In this document: positions 41,710-50,585 of the stretch, piece after piece | Layout: each line of letters starts with the position of its first letter | How positions within the stretch are numbered: the first letter of the stretch is position 1 | Source of the DNA: Spirosoma luteum DSM 19990 | Lineage (GTDB): Bacteria; Bacteroidota; Bacteroidia; Cytophagales; Spirosomataceae | Reading direction: 5' to 3' | Assembly: GCF_000374065.1 (NCBI RefSeq) | Contig: NZ_KB893312.1 | Span: 62,121 to 126,120 of the forward strand | DNA: 64,000 nucleotides | Notes under the pieces: generated by a model | Told to the model about the DNA's origin: nothing | Seen by the model: only the letters and a program-made list of their open reading frames with translations | Databases searched by the model: none | Position numbers and translations under genes: made by a program

Positions 41710-42067
41710 TGGCGTCAATCAGTTGAGAACGCTCTATCCTGATATCAGGCTTTTAGACCCACTACTGCGATAGAGCGGTTTCTTTCGTTTCAACTCGATA
41801 GCTGCTTCTATGTCGTTACGATTACTAAAATGAAGCAATGAAAACATAGTGGTTGGTGGTCTACATTTTGACAGTGGAGACCACCAACCACTATGTAAAC
41901 GCGGTGCGGCTGCTACCATCGACGAAGCAGGGCCCGGTCTAACACGACCCCGGTTCCTACATCTATCGCAAAGGCACCCACTTCGTGTGATATCTCTTTT
42001 TCGGCGGGTGGCAACATCGATGGATGATGACCTCACGTATAAAAACATGATGAGTGCAAAACTCTAG
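41710..42067. other. Intergenic region with a long inverted repeat
   Basis: 358 bp downstream of ruvA. It contains the 18-bp inverted repeat at 41845-41895. Open frames on both strands here are short and unlike known proteins. In-frame sequence runs into the CHAT pseudogene, so the right half may be more of its decayed 5' part. Confidence 0.45.
41845..41895. repeat. Perfect 18-bp inverted repeat
   Basis: catagtggttggtggtct and agaccaccaaccactatg are exact reverse complements separated by a 15-nt spacer. No U-run follows on either side, and it is about 136 bp past ruvA, so a simple terminator is not the best reading. Confidence 0.7.
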
Positions 42068-42572
42068 GGAGGTATTCAATACGATTCGACGTGGACAGCG
42101 CGTGATTCGTGGCCTTTTCTACCCGGCACACAGCGGGAAGTGGAAGAAATCGGGCACTTTATCGGACCGAAGGCAATAGTGATGATGGGCTTATCCGCTA
42201 CCGAAAAGAATCCCAAAGCGCAGTCGGGTCAACAGCCGACAGTATTGCATCTGGCAATGCATGGCTTTGCTTTTCCTGACCTATCCGTAGCGTTGAACGA
42301 CACTACGCCGGGTGGTAATGCGTTCCGTGTATTCTCGGGGTAGCGAAGGGGTATTTGGCTTGCAACGGGCCTTCAAAATGGCCGGTGCCGGGTATCTTCT
42401 CACCGGTTTGTGGCCCGTATCCGATCAGGCTACCAGTGACCTAATGACCCGGTTTTACCGAAACTGGAAGCGGTATAAAATAATCTGGACGGCTTTTCAG
42501 CAAACTCAGCAACAAATGCGACAACAGTACCCACCCTCCATTTGGGCTTGGTTTGTACTGATTAAACAATAA
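42068..42572 (+). pseudogene. CHAT-domain protease pseudogene with active-site deletion
   Basis: Two frames reconstruct a CHAT (caspase-like) C-terminal domain. Frame 1 (to TAG 42341) reads GGIQYDSTWTARDSWPFLPG, TQREVEEIGHFI and QPTVLHLAMHGFAFPD, with the catalytic His in HLAMHG. Frame 2, shifted by one base (to 42572), reads RGSEGVFGLQRAFKMAGAG, YLLTGLWPVSD and AWFVLIKQ. In intact relatives about 60 residues with the catalytic Cys (SACETG) lie between them; here they are missing. There is a stop directly before GGIQYD. The gene is therefore dead, a relative of the intact TPR-CHAT gene 4 kb away. Confidence 0.82.
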
Positions 42573-44408: not shown

Positions 44409-44580
44409 GCTGTGTATGGTAAGTGGAAAACTGAACGAGTAAGCGACTTGCCAATAGATATCTACCCTTGAATTGATGGTGTTTATCAATGCCTTCATCG
44501 GTCTGCTTAGCTGTTTCATTTTTTTATTAATTATAGGTTACAATTTATTCTTCTGCTTCGACTTACAAACGTTAATCATT

Positions 44581-45192
44581 GTGCAGACAGTTAAAAATTT
44601 CTCCGATGCTGAATTAATCACGGCTCTAAAAACAGGGGCTAATATTGATAATGCTGTTGGATTTATCTATCGGAGTTACTACCGTATGTTAGAGAATTAT
44701 GTACTAACAAACAGTGGAAATGAGATGGATGCTGAAGATATTATTCAGGAGGTGCTGGTTGTGTTTATTGATATTGTTCAAACACAGCGGTACAGAAATG
44801 AAGCCAGCGTCCGTTCTTTTTTATATACCCTTACCCGAAACCTCTGGATTTCAGAATTGCGAAAACGAACTAGTGACTCTAAACGAGATGGTCTTTTTGA
44901 AGAGAATAGAGAAAAGGAAGAAGAAGATGTGTCAAACTTGCTAATCTATAAGGAAGCTCAGGTACTTATCGCTGAACTTTTTGAACGGATGGGGGAAAAA
45001 TGTAAACAGATTTTAACACTTTTTTACTATGAAAACTTATCTATGAAAGAAATTTTAACACAAACCAGTTACGAAAACGAGCAGGTTCTTCGAAACAGAA
45101 AATACAAATGTCTTAAGGAACTAACCGACATTATTCAACAATCACCCACCATCAGCAACAGCGTCAAATCAGCCTTACAACGATCAAAATAA
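44581..45192 (+). CDS. ECF-type RNA polymerase sigma factor
   Basis: About 203 residues from the GTG at 44581. The frame opens earlier at an ATG (44476), but that adds a 35-residue hydrophobic stretch foreign to sigma factors. Region 2 is clear (FIYRSYYRMLENYVL, AEDIIQEVLVVFID, RSFLYTLTRNLWISELRKR), with the region 4 helix-turn-helix near the end (GEKCKQILTLFYYENLSMKEI). Its stop codon is one base before the next ATG, so the pair is translationally coupled. It would direct RNA polymerase to a regulon when released by its partner. Confidence 0.9.
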   Translation: MQTVKNFSDAELITALKTGANIDNAVGFIYRSYYRMLENYVLTNSGNEMDAEDIIQEVLVVFIDIVQTQRYRNEASVRSFLYTLTRNLWISELRKRTSDSKRDGLFEENREKEEEDVSNLLIYKEAQVLIAELFERMGEKCKQILTLFYYENLSMKEILTQTSYENEQVLRNRKYKCLKELTDIIQQSPTISNSVKSALQRSK

Positions 45193-45193
45193 C

Positions 45194-45991
45194 ATGGAAA
45201 CCCTCGAATTCCTCGACCAATACATCGACAATCAATTAGTGCCCGAACAGATAGCGCAACTGGAGAAAGACCTGCAGCAGGATGCTGATTTACAACAGCT
45301 ACTCGACAGCATTGTTATTTCTCGTGATGCCATCCGGTACAGAGCCTTAACAATTAAAGTTAAGGGCCTTCATCAGCAATACATAAATGAAATCAGAGCC
45401 GACCCGGGTCAGGACTATGACCAGGATGTTGTACGACCTATGCCCGTTAGCCGGGATTACTCATGGGTGCTTCGTATTGCAGCCAGCGTTTTAATTGCCC
45501 TGTTTGGGTACGGGAGCTACCAGTTCACGGCCCTGGACAAAACCCAGGTTTATACCAATAAATTTATTTCCTATCAATTGCTTACCACGCGTGGCAGAGC
45601 CGACCACTTGTCTCCCCTGCGTTCAGCGTATCTATCGGGGAACTACGGATCCGTTATCCGGCAGTTTAGCACCTTATCAGCTAAAGCCCCAATTGACTAT
45701 TTTCTGACAGGAGTAGCCTGTTTGCAACAACACAAATATGCGCAGGCTATCACCCGGTTTACTGAACTTCGGGCAGTCAATAAGCAACAGCAAGTGGTTT
45801 ATTTCAATGAAGAAACGGATTATTACCTTGCTCTGGCCTATCTGGGTGCAGGCAGGTTAGATGAATCATATTCCCTTTTTAAGTCTATTCACGACGCGCC
45901 ACAACATTTGTTCCGTGAATCGGTAACGGAACTCGATCTTGTGAAGCTCAACGTACTTCGTTTAAAAGAAGGTTCTGACTCTGGTAAGTAA
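45194..45991 (+). CDS. Membrane anti-sigma-like protein with periplasmic TPR-type domain
   Basis: 265 residues. Residues 1-90 are cytoplasmic and begin METLEFLDQYIDNQLVPEQI, a short helical segment of the kind anti-sigma factors of Bacteroidota carry. One membrane helix (about 91-110, WVLRIAASVLIALFGYG) follows. Residues 111-265 would lie in the periplasm and look like two or three TPR-type helix pairs (SAYLSGNYGSVIRQF, CLQQHKYAQAITRF, ALAYLGAGRLDESYSLF). Coupling to the sigma gene suggests it holds the sigma factor at the membrane; this follows from gene order and topology rather than from a recognised anti-sigma motif. Confidence 0.72.
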   Translation: METLEFLDQYIDNQLVPEQIAQLEKDLQQDADLQQLLDSIVISRDAIRYRALTIKVKGLHQQYINEIRADPGQDYDQDVVRPMPVSRDYSWVLRIAASVLIALFGYGSYQFTALDKTQVYTNKFISYQLLTTRGRADHLSPLRSAYLSGNYGSVIRQFSTLSAKAPIDYFLTGVACLQQHKYAQAITRFTELRAVNKQQQVVYFNEETDYYLALAYLGAGRLDESYSLFKSIHDAPQHLFRESVTELDLVKLNVLRLKEGSDSGK

Positions 45992-46185
45992 AACGGGTAG
46001 GCGGTGCTATTTCATAAATTTTCGCTGCCTGCCGATTACATTTTTACACGTCACTTCGACTTATGTACGTTGCCAGCTTCAGTAGAGCGAATGAACCATA
46101 GAATACTACTTGAATCGGCCCGATATATTCCTTGACTTTATAACACGAGTATCGCCAATTACTTAACACTTTAAGAATCTGTACT

Positions 46186-46584
46186 ATGAAAAATAGCCTT
46201 TCGAAACACGTTACGACAACTTCAGAAGTTAACACGACTATTTTAGAATGGGTACAGGCTACCGAAGAATTCCACTGTTATCATAGTAAAATCAGTGCGA
46301 TTTTACGGGACGGGAATAGCAGCAGGTATGCAGATTTAACAAGGACTTCGTCTGTAGGCAAGTCAGGTCGTGTACATAGCTTAAACAAGTTGCGTCAACA
46401 CATGAATCATGTGCTTGAAATACTGATGGCCGATATGAACAATTCTCCGCAAGGCTCTCAGTACACCGACAATTGTAGCACTTCATCACGAGTAGGCAGG
46501 CTGGTAACGCACGCCCGGTTACTTAAAGAGATTAACCGAAAAATTAGTCAGGAGTTAGTGCTTTTTACTAGTTATCAGGCTTGA
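46186..46584 (+). CDS. Hypothetical protein, 132 aa
   Basis: I do not recognise the family. It is soluble and rich in Ser/Thr, His and charged residues, with helical segments such as HSLNKLRQHMNHVLEILMAD and LVTHARLLKEINRKISQEL. No signal peptide or membrane segment. It lies between the sigma/anti-sigma pair and the convergent TPR-CHAT gene, 194 bp after the anti-sigma gene, and ends with its own terminator. Confidence 0.6.
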   Translation: MKNSLSKHVTTTSEVNTTILEWVQATEEFHCYHSKISAILRDGNSSRYADLTRTSSVGKSGRVHSLNKLRQHMNHVLEILMADMNNSPQGSQYTDNCSTSSRVGRLVTHARLLKEINRKISQELVLFTSYQA

Positions 46585-46605
46585 TCTCATTTACTTTTCG
46601 CATTG

Positions 46606-46640
46606 AAAATCCCTGACTGGTTACTGGGCAGGGATTTTTT
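46606..46640 (+). terminator. Terminator after the 132-aa gene
   Basis: aaaatccctg / cagggatttt form a 10-bp stem with a 13-nt loop and end in tttttt. Confidence 0.8.
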
Positions 46641-46710
46641 CAAAATAATAAGCTTGCTCAGTGGCTACTCCCCAGCTTGATTAGGTTTTGATATCCATTC
46701 CAGCTATTCA

Positions 46711-49497
46711 TTAACCATTTCTATAACGCCATCCTAAAATTCCTATAATGCTGATTACTACTGTATAGCAGATCCAGAGCCAGTAGGGTGGAATAACCAT
46801 TGTCTCATCGGGTATTCCAACAAACACCAGGTGTGACCAATACTGGGGTGAATGAAACTGGGCATACCGTCCCTCGTGCAACAGGTTGAGTTTCGCTTTT
46901 CGTAAGGCTTCAGGAAAATTGCTCCCTTGTTTTACATACGTATAAAATCGACTGCTGATAAAAGCGGTAGCGTTGTCTTCAGCTCTCCAGAGCGATGTAA
47001 CAACGTTGGTACATCCCGCAGCGGAGAAAGCTCTTGATAAACTCATCACACCCTCACCACTAATAAGTTTACCACTAGCCGTTTCGCAGGCGCTTAGAAA
47101 GATAAGTTGCACACCAGACAATTTCTCATTACGTAATTCATGGGCATATAATTTACTCTCAGCCTTCGTATTGGCGTAAAATGCGATGTAAGACTGGGAT
47201 GGGTCATTATTGTCGGGTACTGCGTGCGTTGCCAGATGAATAGCAGAAGCGGTGTTGGCGTATTTCAAAAAATTCGCCTTAGTGGCTTCCCCAGACCTTA
47301 GCTTTATGCCGTCCAGACCACTTATTTCCGTATCTGAAGCTGGTAAAAAAGTAAATTCGGGATTGTCAGTTTTCCCGATCAAATCAAAAGGAGCCATGGC
47401 TAACATGCGGTCAAAATTAATTGAACCTTTCTCTTCATCCTGCAAAAAAGAAGCTGCGTATTGGTACGTTATATCAAATTTTTCGAGCAGATACGCTTTA
47501 TTATTGTCCATTAAAATGTCGAAGGAAAGCAGGCTAAGCTCATTATGAGGAATAATAATAAGCGAAGATACCGCCCGTAACTCACGCTCGGCCGGGCCAA
47601 TCAATCTATTGTACAGAAAGCGGGCGTTGTCATATCCCTGATAGGGTAGACCGGGCGTCAGATCGCGTAATTGGGCGTTAAGGGTATGCAGAGCTATGCG
47701 GTAAGCCTTGTCTCTGGGTGATGTATAATAATGAATTCCATACTGAGTCAATACAAAACAATACACTACGTCGCCGGTCTGAAAATAGGAGAGGATAGCC
47801 CTGTTTTGTCTGAGTAAATTTTTTCGCAGATAAGGTATGTCGATACGATCGAAACTAAATTTTTTACGGCGGTAGTCAGGATAATCGAGGAGTTTATTGG
47901 CCAGCCGGGATAAGGCCAGCTCATTCTCTTCCATTGCTGCCGTTAGCGTGGACAGTTGTTGATAGTCAACCGACTTCTCAATTTTTATCAGCAGACGTGA
48001 CAGATTAAACTTAAGATCCCGCTCTTTCTTCAGCAAGGAATCTGGAATATTTGCCGACAGTTTTATTTCATTTTCTTTTAGATTAATGTAAAGGGCAATG
48101 GCCTTACTTTTTTCGGCTAACAAAAAAGCTTCTTCCAGATACGATTCTTGTTTTGTTTGCTCAAACGAACCGATCATAAACGTAACGGCTTCCTGGTAAA
48201 CCGGAAATATTTTTTGAACGATAAAAAGTTGAGCATCTTCCATATCGAATGATTTTTCAATATAGTCAGCTAATCTTAATGCGGCCTGATAAGTACTATT
48301 AGTAATTTCCCGATGCTGATCTGTAGGTTTTGCTACATACAACTTCTTCATGCAATTTGCTTTTGCAGCTAAACTTTCAAATAAAGCGTAGTTACGAAAT
48401 CCACCCGTAGCCGTAGCAGGATTATGATAAACTACTGGATCATTAAAAGCATAATCCAGTTGAATGATTGATTGCTGATAATAACCTAACGCCGTTGGTA
48501 GTTTATTCTGTCGACAGGCTATGTCGGCCAGTAGTTTGTAGGTTATGCCAATGTGTTTATTTTTTCGGGGTGGGCTACTTGGTTGCTGATCTATCTTATA
48601 GTAATTAAGTGCTTTATTTAAGTGAGAAATAGCCTCTCTAAATTGATTTTTTTGTAGATAAACATTTCCGAGTGTATTCTCCAGAATGATACGGTTGTTA
48701 CCTTCTACATCACTCACTTTTGATAAGTAATAAAATGCACTATCCGGCAGATTTTTCTCCAGGTAAATTGCTCCTAAATTGATAAATACTTCATTAATAT
48801 TTACAGTGAGTGGGATGAGGCTTTTGTACATGGAGACGGCTGAATTATAATCCCCCATTCGGCGAAGTGCTGATGCAATATTACTTTTATAACTATACGC
48901 TAACGTTTTTTCTCCAGGTTGATTATTTTTTAGATTTAAGTGAACTGCTTTTCGAAAATAATTGATACTCTGCGGATAGTTTCCGGATTCATAATATAAC
49001 GCGCCAAACGAATTATACAAACTTTGAGACCCTTCCTGAGCTGGGAATTTAAGTAAGATGCCTTCTGCTTTTTTAAGATAATATAACGAAGAGTCGAAGA
49101 GACTCAGAGAGAAGCAGGCAGACCCACAGTAGAGGTAAGGTTTGAAGTGGAGTGAGTCAGGAAGATTATACGCCGAACGGCAGGCAATAGCCTTCTGATA
49201 GAAGGCTATTGCCTGCCGGTGAAAACCGTAGGTTTGTTTTATGACCCCGGCTTTTTCGTAACTGTTGCAAATAATAGGTGCGTTTCTTTTTTCTGCCTTA
49301 ACAACTTTAATAACCTGTAAAAATTTATGCAGTGCCAAACTATCCGTATGCGGGCTTGGGTTTGGCTTATTAAACAATGATAAGGCCTCTTTATATATAC
49401 CAGAATCCTTTTTATGGTTATACGCTTCCTGAGCTAACGCATTGAATGTTATTAAATTAAAAGTAAGTGCAAAAAAAAGGGTAAACTTTCTCTTCAT
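46711..49497 (-). CDS. TPR-CHAT domain protein, exported and C-terminally anchored
   Basis: 928 residues from the ATG at 49497 (a TTG at 49515 would add six). A signal peptide (about 1-22, ending FNALAQE) is followed by at least six TPR pairs (about 70-380), a helical linker, and a CHAT domain (about 590-880). Catalytic His758 is in IHLATHAVPD and Cys804 in FLSACETASG, both intact. A C-terminal membrane helix (about 900-922, YWLWICYTVVISIIGILGW) leaves a short basic tail. The protease domain should face the periplasm. CHAT domains are caspase-like cysteine peptidases that cut specific partners when activated. It follows the lipoprotein gene by 60 bp, so they form an operon. Confidence 0.9.
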   Translation of the reverse strand: MKRKFTLFFALTFNLITFNALAQEAYNHKKDSGIYKEALSLFNKPNPSPHTDSLALHKFLQVIKVVKAEKRNAPIICNSYEKAGVIKQTYGFHRQAIAFYQKAIACRSAYNLPDSLHFKPYLYCGSACFSLSLFDSSLYYLKKAEGILLKFPAQEGSQSLYNSFGALYYESGNYPQSINYFRKAVHLNLKNNQPGEKTLAYSYKSNIASALRRMGDYNSAVSMYKSLIPLTVNINEVFINLGAIYLEKNLPDSAFYYLSKVSDVEGNNRIILENTLGNVYLQKNQFREAISHLNKALNYYKIDQQPSSPPRKNKHIGITYKLLADIACRQNKLPTALGYYQQSIIQLDYAFNDPVVYHNPATATGGFRNYALFESLAAKANCMKKLYVAKPTDQHREITNSTYQAALRLADYIEKSFDMEDAQLFIVQKIFPVYQEAVTFMIGSFEQTKQESYLEEAFLLAEKSKAIALYINLKENEIKLSANIPDSLLKKERDLKFNLSRLLIKIEKSVDYQQLSTLTAAMEENELALSRLANKLLDYPDYRRKKFSFDRIDIPYLRKNLLRQNRAILSYFQTGDVVYCFVLTQYGIHYYTSPRDKAYRIALHTLNAQLRDLTPGLPYQGYDNARFLYNRLIGPAERELRAVSSLIIIPHNELSLLSFDILMDNNKAYLLEKFDITYQYAASFLQDEEKGSINFDRMLAMAPFDLIGKTDNPEFTFLPASDTEISGLDGIKLRSGEATKANFLKYANTASAIHLATHAVPDNNDPSQSYIAFYANTKAESKLYAHELRNEKLSGVQLIFLSACETASGKLISGEGVMSLSRAFSAAGCTNVVTSLWRAEDNATAFISSRFYTYVKQGSNFPEALRKAKLNLLHEGRYAQFHSPQYWSHLVFVGIPDETMVIPPYWLWICYTVVISIIGILGWRYRNG

Positions 49498-49557
49498 AGC
49501 GGTACAAGTTTTCAAATATAGAAGAAAACTCGCAGGACTATACCCCAGTGTATCTCA

Positions 49558-50385
49558 TTAACCTACAATTACAATCTCTGGCGGACGAGGTTTTGCTCCT
49601 CCTCCGTCCGCAGCCGACCGTGCACCGGCACTCGATTGGGTAGTTGTCACGCCTACTTTTTTCAGCAAACTGGCTGGTACGTCGCTTACCTTGCTGTAAT
49701 AGGTAAAGCGAAGATCAATGTGGTTGAGCGCGCCCTGACTGGCATCATTAATTTTGTAATATAGCCGAACGGTGGCCGAGGCTCCATTCGCTGGTTTAAC
49801 TCCCAATACACCACTACTTAATGTTTTCTTTAAATTAACGGAACCCGTTCGAGGATTGATTGAGATGCCCTGACTTTGTAAAGTCGTACTGTTTGTCATC
49901 CCATTTACTACGTCGAAACTTAAATTGTTAGTACCAACCATAGCTGGTGCAACCCCCTTAAAGGTAGGAATAGCCAGCGTATCGTTTTGACTCAGATCGT
50001 ATAACGAATTGGCAAAGTCGATCCCGGCAATTGTTATGTTGCGCGTGCAGGTGTCGGTTGTACCAGCTTTAACGTAAAAAACGGTGTATGTCAACCCTGT
50101 CTCACTTGCACTGATGTTGATAGCACCTGTGGCCGGGTCGATGACTAGCCCGTAAGGCTTAGCCCCATAAGCGCCTGCTAAAGTTGTCGTAGGCTTTACG
50201 ATGTATTTCGTTGACTTATTATTAAGGTAAAAAATGGAGTCAGCATAAGCGAACTCCGAACAGGCGGTGGCGCGCAGTCCCCGATCAATTCCAGTCATCA
50301 GCCCATCGGAGGGGATGATATCTTTTTCGCAACTGCTAAGAATAGACAGCAATAGAAACCCGGTGAGTAATTTCGTGAGATGCAT
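49558..50385 (-). CDS. Lipoprotein with immunoglobulin-like repeats, operon partner of TPR-CHAT
   Basis: 275 residues from the ATG at 50385, where the lipoprotein signal begins (MHLTKLLTGFLLLSILSSC; lipobox LSSC). The rest is beta-rich, with two repeats of the kind AIxISASETGLTYTVFYVKAG and NPRTGSVNLKKTLSSGVLG that look like Ig/cadherin-type modules. The tail is Gly/Ala/Ser-rich then ends PRPPEIVIVG, which would be exposed. It starts 60 bp upstream of TPR-CHAT in the same direction, so it is a candidate substrate, anchor or sensor of that protease. The function is unknown. Confidence 0.72.
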   Translation of the reverse strand: MHLTKLLTGFLLLSILSSCEKDIIPSDGLMTGIDRGLRATACSEFAYADSIFYLNNKSTKYIVKPTTTLAGAYGAKPYGLVIDPATGAINISASETGLTYTVFYVKAGTTDTCTRNITIAGIDFANSLYDLSQNDTLAIPTFKGVAPAMVGTNNLSFDVVNGMTNSTTLQSQGISINPRTGSVNLKKTLSSGVLGVKPANGASATVRLYYKINDASQGALNHIDLRFTYYSKVSDVPASLLKKVGVTTTQSSAGARSAADGGGAKPRPPEIVIVG

Positions 50386-50585
50386 GAGTAGGTGTTTTTT
50401 AAAATAGTTTATTAGTAACAACAGGGGGGATTCTCTACAGAGTCGAAGTAGACACAGCATTTGTAATCTCCCCCGCTAAATAATTTCTGATAATTTGTTA
50501 GTTGCAGGGTGTATAAGATTTGATCCCTACACCAATGATCACCAAGTCGGGGATGTGCAGACAGGGCAATCCGGGACAAACTCTA

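Follow-up and report, generated by a model that had tools for sequence, protein, structure and literature searches.

A recurrent sigma, anti-sigma-like, lipoprotein and TPR-CHAT protease gene module in Spirosoma luteum and its proposed part in envelope signalling

Within a 64,000-nucleotide stretch of the Spirosoma luteum DSM 19990 genome (contig NZ_KB893312.1, positions 62,121 to 126,120; hereafter, the window), the genes for an extracytoplasmic function (ECF) sigma factor, an anti-sigma-like membrane protein, a lipoprotein, and a predicted exported TPR-CHAT cysteine protease make up a neighbourhood whose standing as a recurrent module is well supported. With moderate confidence, we take the best explanation of this neighbourhood to be a self-contained envelope-signalling module, in which cleavage of the anti-sigma-like protein by the CHAT protease after Arg133 is the most likely mechanism. 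The parts are of known kinds, and their arrangement varies known ones in a new way; also new are the promoter element that they share, the invariant Arg-small residue pair of the anti-sigma-like proteins, and the R-P-x-x-hydrophobic tail found in all 73 distinct lipoproteins that were compared.

Recurrence and layout of the neighbourhood

To establish how often the four families occur together, as the original prediction (made from the letters of the window alone) had proposed, we searched 121 genomes of the same family with the CHAT protein and obtained matches in 100 of them. From these, 80 CHAT regions were taken mostly by E-value, with the window's own region, some short or broken ones, and weaker places left aside, and 40 control regions were set at round coordinates in genomes from the same draw. 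Within 7.5 kb of CHAT, the sigma gene was found in 68 of the 80 regions, the anti-sigma-like gene in 73, and both in 65, as compared with sigma in four and anti-sigma in none of the 40 control regions. Co-occurrence was likewise plain among the 80 named loci obtained when a single genome of each species was scanned, where the lipoprotein was present in 74, the anti-sigma in 72, the sigma in 66, and the last two together in 65, some of the misses being contig ends. These loci are titled Bacteroidota, bar one metagenome-assembled genome labelled Thalassobius, and for those with a CHAT protein longer than 600 amino acids (aa), sigma and anti-sigma both lie within 7.5 kb in 60 of 77.

Matches to the lipoprotein itself were found in 16 of the 121 family genomes. 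In 12 of these, a like-sized protein adjoins CHAT in a region that also carries sigma and anti-sigma, and in the other four the match falls within an open reading frame (ORF) of 1,129-2,986 aa. The first half of the lipoprotein resembles repeats within long ORFs of other genomes. For two loci (L188 and L189), sigma and anti-sigma stand two to four genes off from the lipoprotein and CHAT genes. Moreover, when genomes were sampled evenly across the phylum, the lipoprotein profile matched 15 of 296, five of them strongly (S. luteum included). In four of these five, CHAT adjoins the lipoprotein with the anti-sigma close by, and in the fifth, CHAT and anti-sigma are on the same contig about 40 kb away. 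The lipoprotein class is therefore widespread but patchy in the phylum.

In the window, the sigma gene is followed on the forward strand by the anti-sigma-like gene, and the convergent unit on the reverse strand carries the lipoprotein gene and then, after 60 nucleotides (nt), the ATG of the TPR-CHAT gene (Table 1). Here, only a single nucleotide separates the sigma stop from the anti-sigma start (TAA C ATG at 45190-45196), in agreement with the translational coupling that had been proposed between the sigma gene and a membrane protein, for which a single membrane helix and a TPR half are indeed predicted. The lipoprotein-TPR-CHAT operon proposed for the opposite strand was also seen, the protease having a predicted signal peptide and C-terminal membrane helix. 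By sequence, the sigma protein matched Sigma70_r2 (E 3.6e-12, 46.3 bits against a Pfam cut-off of 24) and the sigma70-ECF superfamily model of NCBIfam (59.8 bits, above the cut-off of 42.9), with the Sigma70_r4_2 score (18.7 bits) below its Pfam cut-off of 25.7. Between the two units lies a 132-aa ORF with no family match in Pfam (E up to 1) or NCBIfam. A homologue occupies the equivalent place in Spirosoma spitsbergense (L217), and this ORF is probably a module member in Spirosoma. Upstream of the module, about 2 kb off, we also noticed the remains of a further CHAT gene (41936-42563, forward strand), decayed to two matching blocks, one with an internal TAG.

Table 1. Features of the locus, in positions of the window
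Feature	Position	Strand	Basis or remark
ECF-type promoter-like element RTTACA-N14-TTCGACT before sigma operon	44537..44563	+	
ECF sigma factor gene	44581..45192	+	GTG start; family models
Single-pass anti-sigma-like protein, periplasmic TPR domain (predicted)	45194..45991	+	
Membrane helix of anti-sigma-like protein, residues 89-113	45458..45532	+	AlphaFold2 model
Arg133-Gly134, candidate site-1 cleavage point	45590..45595	+	Alignment and model loop
RTTACA-N14-TTCGACT element before 132-aa ORF	46035..46061	+	Kept in L217
132-aa ORF between convergent units	46186..46584	+	Family assignment none
Exported TPR-CHAT cysteine protease (predicted), C-terminal membrane helix	46711..49497	-	ATG start; ORF opens TTG 49515
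Catalytic Cys804 codon	47086..47088	-	
Catalytic His758 codon	47224..47226	-	
Module lipoprotein	49558..50385	-	Lipobox-like ILSSC by eye
Conserved lipoprotein C-terminal tail KPRPPEIVIVG	49561..49593	-	
RTTACA-N14-TTCGACT element before lipoprotein-CHAT operon	50441..50467	-	

Anti-sigma loop, CHAT pocket and lipoprotein tail

In the AlphaFold2 model of the anti-sigma-like protein (mean predicted local distance difference test score of 91), three N-terminal helices (residues 2-69) precede the membrane helix, after which a loop (residues 124-140) leads into TPR helices (residues 141-263). The gene is coupled to the sigma gene, and its product is predicted to have the cytoplasmic N-terminal helices and one membrane helix of a membrane anti-sigma factor. 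In Pfam, TPR-type models gave weak matches in this protein and in up to 49 of the 56 alignment members, and RseA_N was also weak (E 0.17). The TPR half and the CHAT protein are predicted to share the same, periplasmic side of the membrane. Within the lipoprotein class, Arg133 is invariant in all 72 distinct anti-sigmas, and the residue after it is Gly (37), Ser (22), Asp (12) or Asn (1), and never Pro. As this Arg sits in the loop between the membrane helix and the TPRs, where its neighbours are poorly conserved, we regard the juxtamembrane Arg133-small pair as a candidate CHAT cleavage site. Among the P1 choices that PMC4357240 tabulates for clan CD, Arg is the most frequent.

For the CHAT protein, the Pfam match to the CHAT domain (PF12770) has an E-value of 1.1e-50 and is preceded by TPR families. 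In its AlphaFold2 model, a signal helix (residues 5-31) is followed by a TPR array, then by the CHAT region and lastly by a membrane helix at the C-terminus (residues 910-933), as numbered from the TTG; elsewhere we number from the ATG, to which the TTG count adds six (His764 and Cys810). On the ATG count (from 49497), the His758 and Cys804 of the original prediction are correct, and both are intact. These residues are kept in 89 and 88, respectively, of 91 aligned CHAT proteins longer than 600 aa, and the dyad is found in all 90 of the lipoprotein class, a set that includes some genomes twice. The nearest named relative, from S. spitsbergense, is 86% identical. Judging by the dyad, the TPR array and the predicted fold, we assign this protein to the TPR-CHAT proteases of clan CD.

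With regard to the putative S1 pocket, the lipoprotein-class CHAT proteins retain Glu724 (89/90), an acid at position 805 (Glu/Asp, 87/90) and Asp841 (90/90), the last of which we take to be the equivalent of the separase S1 Asp (in LWxxxD). In MALT1, gingipain R and separase, such S1 acids are described as reading the P1 Arg (for separase, in PMC4626109 and PMC9729208), with Lys replacing the separase pocket Asp in Csx29. In a second class of loci, with a subtilase as the CHAT partner, the Arg133 position is instead Met (15) or Leu (3) in 18/18 pairs. Here, no Glu is found at position 724 in any of 23 CHAT proteins (Ser 12, Ala 8, Val 2, Phe 1) and no acid at position 805 (Lys 20, Gln 2, Arg 1), with Asp841 kept in 12 of the 23 and changed in 11. 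After nine of 149 CHAT/anti-sigma pairs had been dropped (CHAT partial or unanchored, or a doubtful neighbour), Arg133 and Glu724 agreed, being present or absent together, in 135 of 140. This pocket-acid argument for Arg specificity is suggestive, not proof.

The lipoprotein belongs to no family in Pfam or NCBIfam, and its profile found nothing among the PDB sequences at E 0.1. Its tail, however, has the pattern R-P-x-x-hydrophobic-hydrophobic in 73/73 distinct lipoproteins longer than 240 aa (85 counting repeats), a pattern defined after inspection, with an earlier and looser one having fitted 70/75, fragments included. At the third position of the tail pattern, 69 have Pro, two Arg and two Ala, and in 72 of the 73 the conserved Arg lies 9-13 residues before the C-terminus. 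Such proteases are not expected to cleave Arg-Pro bonds. Because the conserved Arg always precedes Pro (as against 0/72 for Arg133 of the anti-sigmas), CHAT is less likely to cut the lipoprotein than the anti-sigma. The cleavage of the anti-sigma that was originally proposed is partly supported, by the co-occurrence of the four families, the shared predicted side and the Arg site. The contrast between Arg-Pro and Arg-small suggests, from the alignments, a brake in the lipoprotein and a substrate in the anti-sigma, with the TPR domains of CHAT and anti-sigma being alternative docking places for the tail.

Promoter element, proposed mechanism and rival explanations

Across the 6.6-Mb genome, the element RTTACA-N14-TTCGACT is matched exactly at three places, all of them in this locus and within 6 kb. 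Since it precedes the sigma operon, the lipoprotein-CHAT operon and the 132-aa ORF, the sigma factor probably drives its own module, an autoregulation that we regard as fairly supported. In S. spitsbergense (L217), there are again three exact matches, where 0.15 would be expected, with no fourth in 20.8 kb. Across 58 loci (57 named ones and the window), the -35 word is upstream of 51 sigma and 35 lipoprotein genes, as compared with 87 of the 607 remaining units in the family and control regions. Moreover, at 31 usable loci with the -35 word at both units, the -10 halves agree at 5.8 of seven positions within a locus and 4.7 between loci, and none of 5000 permutations was as good, in a motif-anchored test that followed both a free-alignment test and the discovery of the motif. 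A regulon beyond the locus was rejected. Allowing up to one mismatch gave five genome matches (the three exact ones and two elsewhere) as against ten for a reversed control pattern, and with the looser TTACA-N13-15-TTCGAC there were seven, the locus accounting for three, as against 13 for its control. As a separate observation, one of the one-mismatch copies starts 81 nt before an S8 subtilase lipoprotein gene with a fervidolysin-like prodomain (L215 1501-2979; G000:C23), a single case that is too little for a regulon claim.

As to mechanism, we consider it somewhat probable that CHAT cleaves the anti-sigma at Arg133. The anti-sigma-like protein would hold the ECF sigma factor at the inner membrane until the activated, membrane-anchored TPR-CHAT protein, as a site-1 protease, cuts it after Arg133 in the exposed loop. 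An M50-family site-2 protease, for which the genome has two PF02163 matches, would then complete the release. Transcription by the freed sigma factor would then cover both operons of the module and, in Spirosoma, the small gene as well, thereby giving positive feedback. The lipoprotein would likely serve as a sensor or brake, its tail docking on a TPR domain or the CHAT active site.

A number of points weigh against this proposal. First, the sigma and anti-sigma profiles were grown on the same regions in which they were counted; a first round with the focal sequence alone gave 37 anti-sigma and 68 sigma proteins. Anti-sigma domains are rare in the anti-sigma alignment (zf-HC2 in 4/56 members and RseA_N in 2/56, by Pfam), and by a plain hydropathy cut 13 of 146 anti-sigma-like proteins are without a membrane helix. 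Ala96 is as invariant as Arg133 in the 72 anti-sigmas, and an invariant Arg133 could be structural. The Arg133/Glu724 rule is broken in five of the 140 pairs (L107, L114, L117, L134 and one lipoprotein-class pair). On a tree of 89 rows (the window, 28 more lipoprotein-class rows picked randomly, and 60 rows not of that class), Arg133 changes independently only once or twice, which puts significance out of reach for its covariation with the pocket, while Glu724 changes at least four times and position 805 five times, the latter more often opposing the expected direction than following it. On these grounds, covariation was rejected as proof of a CHAT/anti-sigma contact, and residue 805 is a weak pocket marker. 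As for the promoter, the motif was written from its own three sites, so its weight rests on the exact matches falling within 6 kb. The excess of the -35 word at lipoprotein genes (35/58) is modest because the reverse strand gives 23/58 (7/58 upstream of sigma genes), and sharing by free upstream alignment was not significant, with 5/58 loci top-ranked where 2.8 were expected.

Alternatively, CHAT might be an output, with sigma and anti-sigma sensing envelope stress via another protease, and sigma turning on CHAT and lipoprotein, whose targets would be other proteins of the envelope. This we consider possible, albeit rather unlikely. While the promoter element shared by the sigma and lipoprotein-CHAT units fits such a plain regulon, the invariance of the anti-sigma loop Arg would be left unexplained, as would the closeness of CHAT to such an anti-sigma in classes with other partners, and DdvA (discussed below), which is an anti-sigma factor and a CHAT protein at once.

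More tentatively still, and in our view unlikely, the lipoprotein R-P tail could be a pseudosubstrate brake in a periplasmic switch resembling separase and securin. Securin acts as a separase pseudosubstrate. By analogy, the tail Arg would fill the CHAT S1 pocket and stay uncut because Pro comes next, the cuttable Arg-Gly/Ser/Asp being supplied by the anti-sigma. Envelope damage would remove the lipoprotein brake and free CHAT to cut the anti-sigma, after which the sigma factor would replenish lipoprotein and CHAT. CRISPR-free CHAT/anti-sigma/sigma sets of this kind might then be the stock from which the type III-E Csx29/Csx30/CASP-sigma arose.

It is a good deal less probable that CHAT processes the lipoprotein, for instance by trimming its tail, with sigma release being indirect. 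In 12/12 family loci and most of the 80 named ones, CHAT is immediately preceded by the lipoprotein gene, whose product has a conserved Arg in its tail, but the Pro that follows this Arg in 73/73 argues otherwise, as do the classes with a subtilase or matrixin-like CHAT partner and no R-P tail. Least probable of all is a defence (conflict) island in which triggered CHAT harms the cell and sigma amplifies: type III-E TPR-CHAT does serve anti-phage defence (PMC10028731 and PMC9729208) and a decayed CHAT gene lies close by, but none of the four proteins has a PADLOC family match at E 0.01, CHAT is predicted to be exported, and the PF03787 effector was not found in the genome.

Known systems and other classes of CHAT locus

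In fold comparisons, the CHAT model gave its best match with Csx29 (8eey; Z 34.4, 4.4 Å for 479 residues), followed by separase (5u1s; Z 29.8, 9.0 Å for 673 residues), the separase domain (5fc3; Z 26.8, 2.9 Å for 302 residues) and DdvA (8rw5; Z 23.0, 11.2 Å for 563 residues). By sequence, DdvA also matches the CHAT profile (E 4.7e-9), with His, Cys and the Asp841 equivalent kept in the alignment. The PDB entries of DdvA (8rot and 8rw5) are titled as a transmembrane anti-sigma factor, with the molecule called 'CHAT domain-containing protein', and by name it is the partner of the ECF sigma DdvS of Myxococcus xanthus. According to PMC4374960, DdvS activity requires DdvA inactivation, and DdvS drives its own promoter. 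DdvA is the known case of a single polypeptide that is both anti-sigma and CHAT protein, and as such speaks for a link between the split proteins here, which have separate genes in the window and wherever both are found in relatives. Unlike DdvA, CHAT is here predicted to be C-terminally anchored, and the TPR domain of the anti-sigma is a short one. The original prediction had known of no description of such an arrangement: the split form was not found described among the matches listed, but a CHAT-bearing transmembrane anti-sigma is in the PDB as DdvA. A paper on the DdvA structure was not found among the ten listed out of 219 matches, and in the open-licence literature CHAT and sigma were joined only in type III-E work, again among the matches listed.

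That type III-E system, the Craspase, likewise has a TPR-CHAT protease (Csx29), a sigma inhibitor (Csx30) and CASP-sigma in one locus. However, it works with Cas7-11 and target RNA and cuts its substrate after Leu407 (PMC10028731 and PMC9729208), whereas the candidate site here follows an Arg. A protease of that type would be expected to be without an export signal, where ours has a predicted signal helix and C-terminal membrane helix. A Cas7-11/gRAMP effector would also be expected, and in S. luteum, the only genome searched for it, nothing matched the RAMP family PF03787, as anticipated when release without any CRISPR component was first suggested. There is also a likeness to DegS-RseA-RpoE, in which a periplasmic cut of a membrane anti-sigma frees an ECF sigma (PMC10202637 and PMC10028731), but the site-1 enzyme of such pathways is not known to be caspase-like, and the words 'CHAT' and 'caspase' are absent from the main text of PMC10202637. 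With separase and securin, the likeness lies in the helical repeats, the caspase-like domain and the P1-Arg-reading acids, separase being eukaryotic; securin-like inhibition by the lipoprotein tail would be an analogy. The module offers a testable CRISPR-free case of caspase-like sigma control on the far side of the membrane, in a phylum where PMC7406223 found a class I anti-sigma domain near only 6% of ECF sigmas. A single mutation would suffice to break the predicted cut site, and likewise any of the pocket acids, the promoter sites or the lipoprotein tail. If cleavage at Arg133 is true, it would be a new route of ECF sigma release in Bacteroidota, give exported CHAT proteins a role and hint at the origin of the Craspase sigma branch.

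The gene directly upstream of CHAT varies by class. The subtilase cluster occurs in 23 regions, with subtilases in all five that were scanned, and a matrixin-like cluster occurs in six, with matrixin-like proteins in all three scanned. No intact HExxH was seen in the matrixin-like partner genes (L100, L106 and L110), which are perhaps non-catalytic sensors. In further classes, other exported proteins are upstream of CHAT, as in L101, L088, L089, L090, L092, L094 and L095, whose proline-rich tails (PPLPIISNG, PPPTAGTE) are without Arg-Pro. Between CHAT and anti-sigma, L243, L239 and similar loci have an extra lipoprotein-like gene, with no family match in L239 and DUF4382 in L243. In addition to the anchored CHAT, four loci (L091, L096, L097 and L098) encode another CHAT protein, 1,102-1,215 aa long, that has no hydrophobic stretch at its C-terminus. 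Lastly, S. luteum has a second module, of the subtilase type, on another contig (L297 6256-12337; G000:C21), in which the sigma, anti-sigma, S8 protease and CHAT genes are all on one strand. Here, the anti-sigma has Met in place of Arg, and the CHAT protein has Cys and Lys at positions 724 and 805 and Asn for Asp841.

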